From Deltaproteobacteria bacterium (lineage in GTDB: Bacteria > Myxococcota_A > UBA9042 > DTJE01), in the NCBI GenBank assembly GCA_029555025.1, contig JAKPTZ010000097.1, forward strand, positions 1-33,747: DNA of 33,747 bases. Direction: 5' to 3'. Positions 7,273 through 20,627 of this stretch are shown here, piece after piece. Under the pieces are notes generated by a model. That model was given only the letters and a program-made list of their open reading frames with translations, did not search any database and was not told the DNA's origin. Each line of letters begins with the position of its first letter. The stretch's first letter is position 1. Both the position numbers and the translations under genes were made by a program.

Positions 7273-8100
7273 TCATTCCCGACAGTCCTGGGAGCCTTTC
7301 GGGCAGGCAAACCTTACATGCGCGTGCCTGAAGTGGCCCTTTGCATGCCTGATGATGCCGCTTTTCGCGCTTTCCCCCTTCGGGTACTGAAACAGGTAAT
7401 CCAACTGAGCGTCGCTGTATCCCATGTCGCGCGCGGCCTGGAAAAAGAACTTCTGCAGCGCGTAATTGATGAAGATGAAGCTGACGCGTCCCGTCGAAAC
7501 CAGGTTCACCAGAAGCGCAAGCGACTTTTCGAAGTCGATTTGTGCCGGATCAAGATCGCCGAATGTTCGCAGGGGCACGTTTTCACGGGCAAAAAATGCG
7601 ATATCGACATCGCGGCCGGATTGGTGTGACTTGTGTGGCGGAATCGGGCCTCCGTCAGCGTCCGACAGCGATCCGACAAGGGCCGGCACCGAGTTCGGGT
7701 AGTCCCGCAGAAGCTCGCCGGCCGCGAACATCACAAGCATGACGGTCTCATCCGTCCCGAAAGGGGCCGTCCCGGTCTGGATGAAACCGGGGCCACTTCT
7801 TCCGATATCCTTTCCATTGACCAGGCTTCCCGACGAAGGGCTGCCAATCGAACTTGAACGCACGGGAAATCTGAGCGTCATCGGCTCGCCCCTGGGGGTG
7901 ACGAACTGGATCGTCGCCCAGGCCGGCGCCTGTCCGGATTCATCTGTCGCGGTCTCGACGGTCTCTTCCGCTGGCGGCGATTCCTCAACTCCCTGGTCGT
8001 TTTCGCCGGGCGTCGGGGAATCATCTTCCTTCACCTGGCTTCCCGCGGCCGCGCATGAGAGGAGCATCGAAATGATGGCGACGTATCGAAGCCTTATCAT
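7273..8100 (-). CDS. MepA-like murein endopeptidase lipoprotein (peptidase M74)
   Basis: A 275-residue LAS-type zinc metallopeptidase, likely cleaving peptidoglycan cross-links in the periplasm. The motifs are SHQSGRDVDIAFF (His159 and Asp166) and HFRHAHVRFACP (His259 and His261), the expected zinc ligands and catalytic residues of the MepA fold. The N-terminus has a type II signal peptide with a lipobox ending LLSC (Cys16), then an acidic Pro/Glu-rich linker to about residue 58. Classical E. coli MepA is a soluble periplasmic protein, so lipid anchoring is a lineage difference. The start overlaps the stop of the upstream lipoprotein gene as ATGA, so the two are co-translated. The last two Cys (266 and 273) could form a disulfide. 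Confidence 0.85.
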   Translation of the reverse strand: MIRLRYVAIISMLLSCAAAGSQVKEDDSPTPGENDQGVEESPPAEETVETATDESGQAPAWATIQFVTPRGEPMTLRFPVRSSSIGSPSSGSLVNGKDIGRSGPGFIQTGTAPFGTDETVMLVMFAAGELLRDYPNSVPALVGSLSDADGGPIPPHKSHQSGRDVDIAFFARENVPLRTFGDLDPAQIDFEKSLALLVNLVSTGRVSFIFINYALQKFFFQAARDMGYSDAQLDYLFQYPKGESAKSGIIRHAKGHFRHAHVRFACPKGSQDCRE

Positions 8101-14643: not shown

Positions 14644-14706
14644 CGGCGCAGCGGACCCCGCGTGCGCCAGGGCCCGGCAATTCGATGGCGATCCGCGGAG
14701 GTTTTG

Positions 14707-17421
14707 ATGAAGTCGTCCGCCGCAAGGCATTTTTCATTTATCGTTCTGCTCGTCGCGGCCGGGTGCTCCGGCAATGTCGTCTATACCGATACGTCCGGCG
14801 ATGACGTCGGTCACGATGCTGTCGTGCAGGACACCGGTACCGAAGACGATGCAGGTGACGTCGTCGTGTTTCCCGACATGGGCGGCAACGGAACCGTCTC
14901 GGCCACCCTGCCATCGGCCGAGATGGCGGTCAGGATAACGACACCGTCGAATCGCGGGTACTACGCGACTCAGGCCGGCACGGTTGCCCTTGGGGGCATA
15001 TACTTCGGAAACCTGGAATCAATCGTTTTCGAGGCCGAAGGCGTCACCGGCGGCCAGGTCATCAGTGAGTCGTCAAGTCCTTACTGGCAGACTGCCGCCA
15101 TTTCCCTGAAGCCTGGCGACAATCTGATAACGGTAATCGCCCGCGGGCGCGGGGACAGGGACGATGTTGAACAGCCGCCGGTCACGGTCAGGGACAGCAT
15201 CGTAATCACCTACAACCCGAACATGTACTTCCCGGCGCCTATGCGCATGTCGCCGCCAACCGTCTTTTCCGGCAGGACCCAGGCCGTCCTGGCAAAGGTC
15301 AACATGGGGCTCTTCGGCACGGCGGCGGGCGACCGCATGTACGTCGTAAGGCAGTTTGAGGACGGTCGTCTTTCCGAAAACCTGGGGGGCATGTCGGACG
15401 GCGGCATGGTTAACGGATCGGCCGATGAAATTCAGGGCGACGGCGTTTTCACCGGGCGGGTAACGGTCAAGTGCGATGCCGTTGGAACCCAGCTCTATCG
15501 AGCGGCGCTTGAGGTGACGTCGGATTCGGGAAGTTATGTGGCCCTGTCCGCGCCATTTGAGCTCAGATGCATCGAGAACATTGATTCCGCGACTTGTTCG
15601 GCCCACAAGGAAACTCTGAGCAAGGCGACAAAGGCGTTCATGGCCAAGGTCGATGCCGGAATGCCGGAACAGGCCAGGGCTGCCGCTTTCAAGGTGATTG
15701 CGGCCGATACGTCGATTGCCGAGACAAGCCAGTCCGATGAATCGGGCGGCGGTATCTGGGTCAGGTTCAACGACGGCGTGCTCGGGGCGCTTAACCTGTA
15801 TGCCGAAGGTCAGCGTGGCGGTGGCGGTTCGGACGTTGACGAGGTTCCGGTCAGTCTGCGCGCGGCCGATTTGCGGTCGCTCGACCGCAACCAGATAAGC
15901 AGCCGCGAAACGCTTCTGCTGGCGCCTTTCTTCACCGAATTCGGCCGTCAGGACGAAATTCCGGCGATTGCCGAGATCGTTTCCGAAATCAATTGTCCGG
16001 TCTTCACGCTTAAGGGCCCGTATCTTGGGTCGGGCGCGAGCCTGGAAAAGTTCAGGCAGCTTTCGACCAGCGGAATCATCGCCATATCGACGCACTCCGA
16101 CGTCTATTTCGCCGGCCTTTCCGGCGCCGTCAGGGCCGGCCTTCCGTGGCGCCATCGTGGCGGCCAGGAGATCCTGTGGAGCGGAGAATCGGTCAACTGC
16201 GGCAGGATCGGGTCGTCCGACCAGGAATGCGAGTCGTCGGCGGACTGCCCGGCGGGCTCCACCTGCATCATCACTGATCCGCCGGAGGAATACACCGAGC
16301 AGGTCGAAACCGACGCCGGGATCCAGCAGGTAACCAAGATGACGAAGCCCTCGGGAACGTGTTACGACACGACCCACGCCGACCTGATGTCGGGACGTCT
16401 GGTCATGGGCGATCGAAACTGGGGCGTCACGCCGGAGTTTGTCGAGTACTACGCCGACGAGCAGCGCCTGCCGGGAAGTCTTGTGTATCTGGGCGGCTGC
16501 AGGACGCTTTACAACGGCAGCCTTGCCATGGCGCTCCTGGCCTCCGGCGCCAGGACGGTCCTTGGCTACACCAACCGGGTCTCTTCCGAATTCGCATTCA
16601 AGTCGGGCCGCGACTTCTTCTTTAACTTCCTTCTTCGCACATTGTCGGCAAGCGAGTCATACGGCGGCGGCGACGTCGATCCGGAAAACCCCGGCGGCTT
16701 CTTCAGGCTCTTTGGTGCCCTTGACCTGTCAGTCAAGTACTCGAACATCCTGAACCCCGGGTTCGAAACCTCGGACGCGGCAGCCTGGGTCACCCAGGGT
16801 GACGGCCGCGTAATCACCAGGCTCGGCGAAACCGAGCCGATCGCCGGCAAGTTCATGGGAATCATCTCGACCGGCCTTGGATTCACCGATAAAACCGGAA
16901 CGATTTCGCAGAGTTTCTGCATCCCGGCGGGCGCCCGGGAACTGGTTTTTTACTGGAAGTACTACTCCGAGGAATTTCACGAGTTCTGCGGGACTCTTTA
17001 CCAGGACGCATTCGTCGCCCGCCTGACGACGAAGGACGGCACCGAGTATCCGGTCGTGGATATCAAGGTCGATGACCTGTGCGCGAAAGACGGTTCGACA
17101 ACGCCGCCGGAACTGTGTTTTGAATACGAAGGCTCGTGCGATCCCGAAAAGTGCACGAACAAGGTCAGCGGCAAGCTCGAGTGCCGAAAGTATCACTGCG
17201 AGGCCGACCAGTGCGGCAGCAAGTTCGTGGGCCTCGAGCCATCAGACATCGATTTCGACAGGGGCGACACGTACATGACCGGATGGCAGAAGGCCGTCTT
17301 CCCGCTTGACGCCTTTGATCCCGAGCGCGACGCGCCGGTCACGATATCGTTTTATTGCACCGACAAGGGCGACTCGATCTTCGATACCGCTGTGCTGGTC
17401 GATTCGGTCAGCTTCAGGTAA
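14707..17421 (+). CDS. Lipoprotein with caspase/gingipain/CHAT-like (clan CD) domain
   Basis: A 904-residue outer-surface candidate: signal peptide with lipobox VAAGC (Cys20), then an Asp-rich linker to about residue 60. Residues about 75-330 are strand-rich (Ig-like). The segment at about 398-660 looks like a caspase-hemoglobinase fold: strand TLLLAPFF, helix, ASLEKFRQLSTSG, strand IIAISTHSDV with His463, then SLVYLGGCRTLYNG with Cys598 and ALLASGARTVLGYTNRV, closely paralleling the His/Cys dyad strands of CHAT and C25 peptidases. An insertion of roughly 100 residues between His and Cys carries a Cys-rich DCPAGSTC motif. The last 220 residues (NPGFE onward) resemble a jelly-roll domain with several Cys pairs. 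ATG 14707 was chosen because it starts the signal peptide. The start of an upstream extension to 14497 would precede the promoter. Confidence 0.85.
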   Translation: MKSSAARHFSFIVLLVAAGCSGNVVYTDTSGDDVGHDAVVQDTGTEDDAGDVVVFPDMGGNGTVSATLPSAEMAVRITTPSNRGYYATQAGTVALGGIYFGNLESIVFEAEGVTGGQVISESSSPYWQTAAISLKPGDNLITVIARGRGDRDDVEQPPVTVRDSIVITYNPNMYFPAPMRMSPPTVFSGRTQAVLAKVNMGLFGTAAGDRMYVVRQFEDGRLSENLGGMSDGGMVNGSADEIQGDGVFTGRVTVKCDAVGTQLYRAALEVTSDSGSYVALSAPFELRCIENIDSATCSAHKETLSKATKAFMAKVDAGMPEQARAAAFKVIAADTSIAETSQSDESGGGIWVRFNDGVLGALNLYAEGQRGGGGSDVDEVPVSLRAADLRSLDRNQISSRETLLLAPFFTEFGRQDEIPAIAEIVSEINCPVFTLKGPYLGSGASLEKFRQLSTSGIIAISTHSDVYFAGLSGAVRAGLPWRHRGGQEILWSGESVNCGRIGSSDQECESSADCPAGSTCIITDPPEEYTEQVETDAGIQQVTKMTKPSGTCYDTTHADLMSGRLVMGDRNWGVTPEFVEYYADEQRLPGSLVYLGGCRTLYNGSLAMALLASGARTVLGYTNRVSSEFAFKSGRDFFFNFLLRTLSASESYGGGDVDPENPGGFFRLFGALDLSVKYSNILNPGFETSDAAAWVTQGDGRVITRLGETEPIAGKFMGIISTGLGFTDKTGTISQSFCIPAGARELVFYWKYYSEEFHEFCGTLYQDAFVARLTTKDGTEYPVVDIKVDDLCAKDGSTTPPELCFEYEGSCDPEKCTNKVSGKLECRKYHCEADQCGSKFVGLEPSDIDFDRGDTYMTGWQKAVFPLDAFDPERDAPVTISFYCTDKGDSIFDTAVLVDSVSFR

Positions 17422-17471: not shown

Positions 17472-20400
17472 CTATTCAAGGTGGCCCTGAACCGCGGTGA
17501 AGCCGTTCTGTCTGAAGAACTGCTCGACGAAGAACTTGACGTTGGTTCCCGTCGGGATATCGGACACCAGGCTGTTCAGGTCGATGACCGGGATCGGGAA
17601 GTCCAGCAGTTGTTCACAGGTTGGAAGCTGTTCGAGCAGAGGCCCGATCATCGGAAGGATTATGTCGTTGTAGAACTGATCCTTGGTCCATCCGTTGGTG
17701 GCCAGGAATTCCGGATCGACGCTGATGACGTCGAGCATGATCTTCGGAACGTTCAGAAGTCGGATCTTGATTGTCGAGTTGCCTGCCTCGTCCTCGCCCG
17801 CCGCAAGATCGACAAGCCCGATGGCCTGAACGAACACTTCCATGTACATCGGCATCCCGAACACATCGCCTTCAATCCTTGCATACGCATCGCCGAGCTG
17901 GAGCTGCATGACCTGTTCGGGCGCGACCGTGCAGTCCCCCTCGAACGTCTCCGGGTCAAAGACGTACTCTGGATTGCATCCGGTGATGACCGGAGGCGAA
18001 TAGAAGTCCAGGTCAACCTTCTTCAGCACGACGACCGGTATGTCAAGTCCGCCAAGGATGTCCTCGCCAATCGTCAGGTTCAGCGTGCCTGCGTTCCATA
18101 CCGCGTACAGAATCTGGTTCAGGACGTCGTCGTACGCCGCGAAGCCGACCTGGGCGTCTTCCGGAATCACGAACGGGTCGGTGTTGACTTTCAGGCAGTT
18201 GGCGCGTCCGATTGATCCCAGGTTCTCGTGGGCGACGCCCTTCTGTGAATAGATGACCGCGTCCATGTCCAGCCACATCCCGGGGTGATCCAGCTTGAAC
18301 TTTGAAGGCATCGTCATCAGGGAAACTTCCACCGGCTTCGAACCGAGGATGGAAGGAATCTCCAGTGAAGTCTCGATCTTGAACTGATCCAGGAGATCGA
18401 CGATGACATCGTTCAGCATGGTTTCAAGCTGGCCTTTTATGGCCTTCTCGATGGCGTCCGCGAAGACATCGACGATTGAATCGATCAGCCAGTCAAGCAG
18501 GTCGCCGATAAAGCCTTCCAGATCTATGTCCAATCCCGCGATATTGAAATTGGCGAACTTCATCGTCGATGTGAAGACGGCGTTTTCGTCCATCTTGATG
18601 TGCAGTTCGGTATCGACCTCAAATGCATCGGCATATACGTGCCCGGTGACATCCGGACACCAGTCGATGATGAACTGGCACTTGCCTTCGGCCTCGACCT
18701 CCAGGTGGAAATTTCTGATGTCGATGCCAAGCGCGAGGTAGTCCGTCTCGGGGCTCAGGCTGACCGACGGTTTGTCGTACTCGATCTTGCGTATCCAGAC
18801 CTTGTAGGGTCCGGCCGACGCGATCGGGTTGGGAATCAGGTTCTGCAGTTTCAGGCCCCCGACAATCTGCTCCATCAGGGTCGCCACGTCATCCGGCGGC
18901 GGGTTCCGGTTGCCGTCGTCGAAGAAGCTCCTGCCAAGGTATGCCTTGATCGCGCCAGGAACCATCGAGCCTTCAAGGTCGGTCAGATCGACGTCGTAAT
19001 ACTTGGTCGAGAAGAAGAAGCCCCTGGTTTCGGAGGCCTTTTTTCCCATGCTGTTTTCAATGTTGATTTCAACGGTGTTCAGGCCCTGATGGATCTTGGG
19101 CAACTGGTATGTCAGGGTTCCGTTCTTGATGAATTTCGAAGGAGTTTCCTCCTTGCCGTTGACCACCAGCTTCGTGATCCCGGACAGGGCATCGTCTATG
19201 CTCGCCACGACCGCGACCGAAGGCTTGCCGTCGATTGTGGCGCCGCGTGGCGGATAAATTATCGAGAGCATCGGCCCGCTGCCATCGACGCGGATTTCAA
19301 GATCCCTGAACAGCCCCTGGTTCTGGACCAGCCTGAACGTAAGGATGTATCGCCCTTCCTTCTTAAGCAGGAATTCGCCGGACGTGTCGCCGTTAAGCAT
19401 CTTGATTCCGTCCGAAGGCGACTGGACGACGACGACGTTACCTTCCCCGTCCATCGATTCGTAGTCCATCGGCATGATGGTTACCGGCGAGAAGGCCGCC
19501 TTGGGAATCACGTTTCCAAACCGGTCGGTCGCCGTCATCGTCACCTGGATCTTCTGGTTCGTTCCATACACCGGCTTGTTCGGCACGACCTTCAATTCGA
19601 TGTTTTCCGCCGGCGCGGCCCCGACGGTCAGGGCAACCGGGAACAGTTCGAAAAGATCCCATTTTTCAGTCTGCGGGACGCACTTGACCGTATAGATGCC
19701 TGCCTGTTCCGTGTAAAGCTCCTTGCCCTTCAACTGCAGCGCGGGCGGATGGCTGACGGACAGGCCGATGGAACTGACCTTGTTTTCATAGAAGTCACGG
19801 ACTTCACAGTCAACCCGGGATGACTCGCCGGCCACGATCGATTGAGGGTCAAGCTTCGTGTAGATTTTACGGGCGTTGTTCGGCTCGACCGTCACCTGGA
19901 CCGGCGTCGAATCCAGCATCGTCGTGTTTTCAATGCCGCAGGCGATATCGAAGGTTCCGACCGCGATGAACTGGACGTCAAGCCCCGATGTCTTGACGCC
20001 GTTCTGGGGCGTCACAGCGGGGAAAAACCCCGAAGTAATGGGATTGTCCCAGCGATCCTTGCCGGTGCACGTCACATGAACCCAGGCGCCGGCCTTGACC
20101 AGCGTCGGTGTTGCCTCGGTATCGATTTGAACGGCCATTCCGGGATCCACGCTTATGCGTTCGGGCTGAAGATCGATCATCCCGGCGTCGGGCGCGTAAC
20201 AGGTCACGTTGAAAGAGCCGGTCACCGTGAACGTAAGCCTTCCGTCTTCAAGCTCTATGCCTTCCGGAAGTTCCATCGTGTCCGGATCGAGTTTCGTGAT
20301 TTCAGGATTATCGCCTTCCTGGGGTTCGCCCTCCTGTCCGAAATCGATGGTCGCTTTCTTCGGATCCCACACAAGGATTCTGGCAAGGCCAGGTTCCCAT

Positions 20401-20627
20401 CCGCTTCCGATGCAATCGACCTTCACCGGCAGCCCGGCCTGGGTCATGTTCGAGGCGACGACGGTGTCGATCGAGTCGACCGGAATGCCGGAATCCAGGG
20501 AATCGGCGCCGATATCGCCGGAAATCGTATCGGGCGAGGTATTCGGACCACCGCCGCAGCCGGCTGCCGAAGCAAGCGTCATCATCGCAGCAGCCAGGAA
20601 TATCGACAGCCTTCGTGACTTTGTCAT
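17472..20627 (-). CDS. Lipoprotein with Ig-like repeats and TULIP (BPI/LBP)-like lipid-binding half
   Basis: A 1051-residue lipoprotein: signal peptide with Cys24 in SAAGC, then an Asp/Ser-rich linker. Residues about 60-530 contain four or five Ig-like units, several with the phrase 'VTCTGKDRWDNP' or 'VTMTATDRFGNV'. From about 545 the character changes. The amphipathic helix at 700-750 (LEGFIGDLLDWLIDSIVDVF and following) and the stretch YDDVLNQILYAVWNAGTLNL at 832-851 match the two half-domains of tubular lipid-binding (TULIP) proteins such as BPI, where the second begins with a similar 'LN..L...W..G.L' helix. The end contains further helix/strand segments. It likely binds a lipid or other hydrophobic ligand at the cell envelope; this is inference. 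GGAGG precedes the ATG. Confidence 0.88.
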   Translation of the reverse strand: MTKSRRLSIFLAAAMMTLASAAGCGGGPNTSPDTISGDIGADSLDSGIPVDSIDTVVASNMTQAGLPVKVDCIGSGWEPGLARILVWDPKKATIDFGQEGEPQEGDNPEITKLDPDTMELPEGIELEDGRLTFTVTGSFNVTCYAPDAGMIDLQPERISVDPGMAVQIDTEATPTLVKAGAWVHVTCTGKDRWDNPITSGFFPAVTPQNGVKTSGLDVQFIAVGTFDIACGIENTTMLDSTPVQVTVEPNNARKIYTKLDPQSIVAGESSRVDCEVRDFYENKVSSIGLSVSHPPALQLKGKELYTEQAGIYTVKCVPQTEKWDLFELFPVALTVGAAPAENIELKVVPNKPVYGTNQKIQVTMTATDRFGNVIPKAAFSPVTIMPMDYESMDGEGNVVVVQSPSDGIKMLNGDTSGEFLLKKEGRYILTFRLVQNQGLFRDLEIRVDGSGPMLSIIYPPRGATIDGKPSVAVVASIDDALSGITKLVVNGKEETPSKFIKNGTLTYQLPKIHQGLNTVEINIENSMGKKASETRGFFFSTKYYDVDLTDLEGSMVPGAIKAYLGRSFFDDGNRNPPPDDVATLMEQIVGGLKLQNLIPNPIASAGPYKVWIRKIEYDKPSVSLSPETDYLALGIDIRNFHLEVEAEGKCQFIIDWCPDVTGHVYADAFEVDTELHIKMDENAVFTSTMKFANFNIAGLDIDLEGFIGDLLDWLIDSIVDVFADAIEKAIKGQLETMLNDVIVDLLDQFKIETSLEIPSILGSKPVEVSLMTMPSKFKLDHPGMWLDMDAVIYSQKGVAHENLGSIGRANCLKVNTDPFVIPEDAQVGFAAYDDVLNQILYAVWNAGTLNLTIGEDILGGLDIPVVVLKKVDLDFYSPPVITGCNPEYVFDPETFEGDCTVAPEQVMQLQLGDAYARIEGDVFGMPMYMEVFVQAIGLVDLAAGEDEAGNSTIKIRLLNVPKIMLDVISVDPEFLATNGWTKDQFYNDIILPMIGPLLEQLPTCEQLLDFPIPVIDLNSLVSDIPTGTNVKFFVEQFFRQNGFTAVQGHLE

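Follow-up and report, generated by a model that had tools for sequence, protein, structure and literature searches.

Lipoprotein Gene and Domain Architecture

The window, i.e., the whole 33,747-nucleotide stretch of DNA analyzed here, contains a protein-coding ORF of 904 amino acids (905 codons with the stop) at 14707–17421 on the + strand, and the features of this gene given below all lie on the same strand. A Shine-Dalgarno-like GGAGG (14697–14701), read from the sequence, is located five bases 5′ of the ATG at 14707, and the ORF boundaries in the first-pass annotation are exact. In the translation, the N-terminus MKSSAARHFSFIVLLVAAGC is a signal peptide with a lipobox at Cys20 (14707–14766; the codon of the lipid-carrying Cys20 is 14764–14766). 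Because the signal peptide, comprising the first 20 residues, ends in a lipobox, the mature protein should begin at lipid-modified Cys20, and the lipid anchor proposed earlier is thus borne out as a sequence-based prediction. The gene was present as a single copy in its own genome in a genome-wide search.

Following the lipobox is an Asp/Gly-rich linker (residues 21–70; 14767–14916), recognized in the sequence, whose end is of low confidence in the structural model, and then two beta domains. The first (residues 72–168; 14920–15210) is Ig-like, as judged by the strands in the model and weak Glucodextran_B and Big_7 matches in relatives, and the second (residues 178–290; 15238–15576) is choice-of-anchor X-like, based on the model and relatives, with D231, G233, D240, and D245 invariant. 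The alignment and model next define a helical pre-domain with a conserved hairpin, GGGIWVRFNDGVLGAL (residues 294–371; 15586–15819; G357 invariant), which is separated by a linker that is variable in the alignment (residues 372–392; 15820–15882; mean pLDDT about 52–55) from a CHAT-like/clan CD catalytic domain (residues 399–672; 15901–16722) recognized by alignment, profile, model, and Foldseek. The remainder (residues 673–904; 16723–17418) is a Cys-containing, choice-of-anchor L-like beta domain. The choice-of-anchor L model (NF038133) matched the window protein weakly (E 0.0064, 16 bits, below the 27-bit cut-off) and matched 7 of 10 distant relatives above the cut-off over the same C-terminal domain, which is all-beta in the AlphaFold2 model of residues 60–904; the first-pass annotation had called it jelly-roll-like. 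The middle of the protein was not recognized by curated libraries (Pfam, NCBIfam), and when the window protein was used as the query, neither these libraries nor the PDB sequences gave anything decisive. A Roadblock match (E 0.65–0.72) was discounted.

Predicted Fold and the His463-Cys598 Dyad

The full AlphaFold2 model (residues 60–904) has a pLDDT of 88.2 and a pTM of 0.90. Since the Foldseek search with this model was swamped by Ig-domain matches, the catalytic region (residues 294–672) was modeled separately, with a pLDDT of 92.2 and a pTM of 0.90. When the order of elements was compared, the catalytic-region model had six core strands in clan CD order, b-a-a-b-a-b(His)...a-b(Cys)-a-b-a-b. 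His463 (within IIAISTHSDV) is located three residues past the strand 457–460, and Cys598 (within SLVYLGGCRT) three residues past the strand 592–595; the definition of clan CD requires the dyad to follow immediately on strands 3 and 4 (PMC4357240). The putative catalytic His after strand 3 is encoded at 16093–16095 and the putative nucleophile after strand 4 at 16498–16500.

Among the Foldseek matches listed, those with a probability of at least 0.75 were all named CHAT or hit by a CHAT profile, namely DdvA (8rot/8rw5), Csx29/TPR-CHAT (7y84/7y85/8eey/7zoq), and SAVED-CHAT (8tl0). These CHAT matches had probabilities of 0.75–1.00 and weak E-values, from 1.7e-3 (best) to 4e-2 with none below 0.001, and their TM-scores were low because the matches are multi-domain. 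IDH matches (probability about 0.1) were discounted as chance. The clan CD fold suggested by the first-pass annotation is supported at the level of prediction, by a confident model with the clan CD order and with plausible matches that are all CHAT proteins. The paper describing the DdvA structure was not found in our literature search.

Both dyad residues are present without exception in the close relatives (29/29) and occur in 78 of 82 wider relatives, which span many phyla with identity down to about 20%. The exceptions among these 82 rows are one fragment and three paralogs without both residues; no relative has just one of the two. His463 and Cys598 are also invariant in two alignments from which fragments and dyad-less paralogs were excluded: in the alignment of 72 longer sequences they are two of nine invariant columns, and among the 74 sequences aligned over residues 294–672 they share this status only with G357 and G456. 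The residue following His463 is Ser in the window protein and Gly in 74 of the 82 relatives. The dyad that had been proposed thus lies at the predicted residues and strands, and the homolog survey found it conserved.

Relationship to CHAT and Other Clan CD Families

Taken alone, the sequence of the window protein had no match to CHAT, C25, or solved clan CD chains. For Pfam CHAT (PF12770), there was likewise no match to the window protein, and the best relative scored 22.4 bits (gathering cut-off, 24 bits); a Schekmanbacteria relative matched at 9.2e-5. For the hhalign comparisons, the CHAT and C25 profiles were built with proteins from the same bacterial class. Against CHAT, the comparison gave a probability of 75–82%, E of 1e-5 to 2.5e-5, and a score of 42, far above the shuffled (n = 60; mean 13.2, SD 2.1, maximum 20.4) and reversed (14.1) controls, and it placed His on the CHAT His and Cys on the CHAT Cys. 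A second profile comparison against CHAT gave 77.4%, with the alignment over the Cys half only. Given that C25 and CHAT, two accepted relatives, give 85% by the same method, the signal between our family and CHAT has roughly the strength expected for such a known pair.

By contrast, membership in C25 (gingipain) was rejected, as the comparisons gave a probability of 0.3–4% and, in the cleaned test, a score of 16.8, within the shuffled range (maximum 19.6). Therefore, of the clan CD relatives put forward in the first-pass annotation, CHAT was retained, on the basis of profile and Foldseek, and gingipain was not. For C14, C11, and C80, no match was present among the Pfam hits or the 50 Foldseek matches listed (no direct profile comparison). 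A true C25 peptidase of the gingipain type (E 3.3e-54; L116, G000:C150:19-1125) is encoded in the same genome.

The family shares with CHAT proteins (Csx29/TPR-CHAT, SAVED-CHAT, and DdvA) the element order, the register of His and Cys, the profile match, and the Foldseek matches. However, it falls below the Pfam cut-off, is without a TPR or SAVED partner, and places the domain on a lipoprotein that is exported and also contains Ig-like and choice-of-anchor domains. The His-Cys spacer also differs, at 68–135 residues compared to 45–93 in the CHAT proteins compared; the dyad of TPR-CHAT is H585/C627 (PMC9729208). With C25 (PF01364), the family has in common clan CD, an exported bacterial enzyme, a His-Cys dyad, and occurrence in the same bacterial class, but the profile score is not above control and the C25 spacer is 27–54 residues. 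A Paenibacillus relative, and only this one, weakly matched the YabG sporulation peptidase (TIGR02855; E 0.014). YabG, a proposed clan CD member whose clan CD-type dyad was likewise missed by standard families (PMC12445089), does not share this lipoprotein architecture. Overall, the profile match with the dyad aligned, the model and Foldseek matches, and the conservation of the dyad support an assignment to clan CD that is CHAT-like rather than C25/gingipain-like, and the middle part of the protein is very probably a CHAT-type, caspase-related cysteine protease.

Distribution of the Family

Matches were found in 50 of 90 related genomes, often several per genome, and tblastn against plasmids gave zero matches. 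A genome-wide pattern scan yielded 79 loci, with hosts including Myxococcota-type MAGs, Nitrosomonas, Photobacterium, Alteromonadaceae, Paenibacillus, Brocadia and other Planctomycetota, as well as WOR-3, Schekmanbacteria, Hydrogenedentes, Eisenbacteria, Bacteroidetes, and Ignavibacteria. Among named relatives, the closest is from a Myxococcota bacterium MAG. One record titled Klebsiella pneumoniae (CAMDBH010000023.1; L066) holds a Myxococcota-type gene, and this MAG label is probably wrong. Of the 85 relatives whose N-terminus could be read, at least 59 have one that is lipobox-like, and in the Paenibacillus relative three SLH domains take the place of the lipobox; cell-surface anchoring therefore looks like a trait of the family.

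Our literature search found no published account of this family. CHAT proteases that have been studied, such as Csx29 and SAVED-CHAT, are intracellular, switched defense effectors. If our assignment is true, a widespread exported and membrane-anchored CHAT-like family would represent the same machine working outside the cell, and it would also annotate proteins that are without any curated match.

Cysteine-Rich Insert Between His and Cys

The alignment of Myxococcota-type rows reveals a Cys-rich insert at residues 498–552 (16198–16362), containing C498, C508, C514, C520, and C552, with the DCPAGSTC motif at residues 513–520. C508, C514, C520, and C552 are found in 60 of 61 Myxococcota-type rows, and C498 in 56 of 61. 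The spacer between His and Cys is 135 residues in the window protein, 112–135 in the Myxococcota-type branch, and 68–91 outside it. Because relatives free of the insert already have a spacer of 68–91 residues, the added stretch amounts to about 55 residues in the window protein and 33–55 across the branch; the insertion noted in the first-pass annotation is therefore real, but its size had been overestimated at roughly 100 residues. The insert is absent from 17–18 distant relatives and confined to the Myxococcota-type branch, and is thus an addition of that lineage. It is beta-rich and well predicted in the catalytic-region AlphaFold2 model, and may perhaps be a disulfide-braced exosite.

Dyad-Less Paralogs

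Besides the three paralogs among the 82 rows, one more dyad-less paralog was found later, and each of the four has lost His and Cys together. Nine other divergent paralogs have all kept both residues. All dyad-less proteins fall into a single clade (support 1.0), so there was one loss event rather than several. They have kept the rest of the protein, although two motifs in the C-terminal domain, SEEF and GDSIxDTA, have changed too. In three genomes, the dyad-less gene is directly downstream of an intact copy (L043:8440-11184, L085:8440-11082, and L093:1224-3947), and each of these three genes is then followed by a small gene of 169–172 aa with Cys motifs (CGCP, CPxC). Such natural dyad-less paralogs provide a ready-made control for activity tests.

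Possible Functions

The envelope anchoring together with the dyad points to a site-specific endopeptidase outside the cytoplasm. We consider it likely that the window protein is an exported CHAT-like clan CD endopeptidase, with site-specific processing of envelope or extracellular proteins as its most likely use. After export and lipidation at Cys20, it would stay anchored in the cell envelope, probably at the outer membrane, where the two Ig-like domains might form a stalk presenting the CHAT-like cysteine endopeptidase. His463 would activate Cys598 for attack on a peptide bond, and the Cys-rich insert, together with the beta domain at the C-terminus, may serve in substrate binding or in stabilizing the enzyme outside the cell. 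The gene structure, the lipobox, the conservation of the dyad, the homology at the level of CHAT, and the predicted fold are shown by the analysis; proteolysis, surface exposure, and these roles of the flanking domains are inferences. More speculatively, the low-confidence variable linker (residues 372–392) between the pre-domain and the catalytic domain could be a site of self-cleavage.

The same fold and dyad could also serve a transpeptidase or ligase (PorU and legumain can act as such) whose task would be to attach or trim proteins at the surface. Known ligases occur within clan CD, and the protein is exported and anchored, with choice-of-anchor domains of the kind found on sorted surface proteins; however, the gene neighborhood yielded neither a sorting system nor a sorting signal paired with it, and we regard this activity as unlikely. 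It is a little less likely that the protein has retained the fold only to bind, as an adhesin or a regulatory pseudo-protease, with His and Cys conserved for structural reasons. The dyad-less clade does suggest that the scaffold can serve without the dyad. Outside that clade, by contrast, the dyad stays invariant in relatives as distant as about 20% identity, with variable residues around it, and within the clade the joint loss of His and Cys, accompanied by changes in SEEF and GDSIxDTA, also argues against a mere binding role. That the domain is a look-alike alpha/beta fold outside clan CD with a chance His-Cys pair is nearly refuted: within the window protein, no curated model covers the catalytic domain, and the Foldseek E-values exceed 0.001, but the profile match aligns the dyad residues and scores far over both kinds of control, shuffled and reversed, and the plausible structural matches among those listed are all CHAT proteins.

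Returning to the exported endopeptidase, a broader reading, which falls somewhat short of probable, is that the proteins represent an unrecognized clan CD family near CHAT, whose members in many phyla are permanently exported and anchored to the surface, and in which one lineage pairs the intact enzyme with a tandem dyad-less regulator or decoy.

Gene Neighborhood

Beyond the order, no neighboring gene hints at a substrate, and no partner is common beyond subgroups. The tail-to-tail neighbor in the window (17472–20627, − strand) encodes a 1051-aa lipoprotein with a weak match to Grp7_allergen (TULIP-like; E 0.0035), and is conserved in nine relatives of the order. An M74 murein endopeptidase is encoded at 7273–8100 (− strand) of the window, and an M74 gene is also located 2.5–3.6 kb upstream of one paralog group (L050, L053, L054, L068, L070, L074, L078, and L079). 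In addition, a gene that by eye resembles apolipoprotein N-acyltransferase lies 5.7–9 kb downstream of one paralog group (L056, L066, L069, and others).
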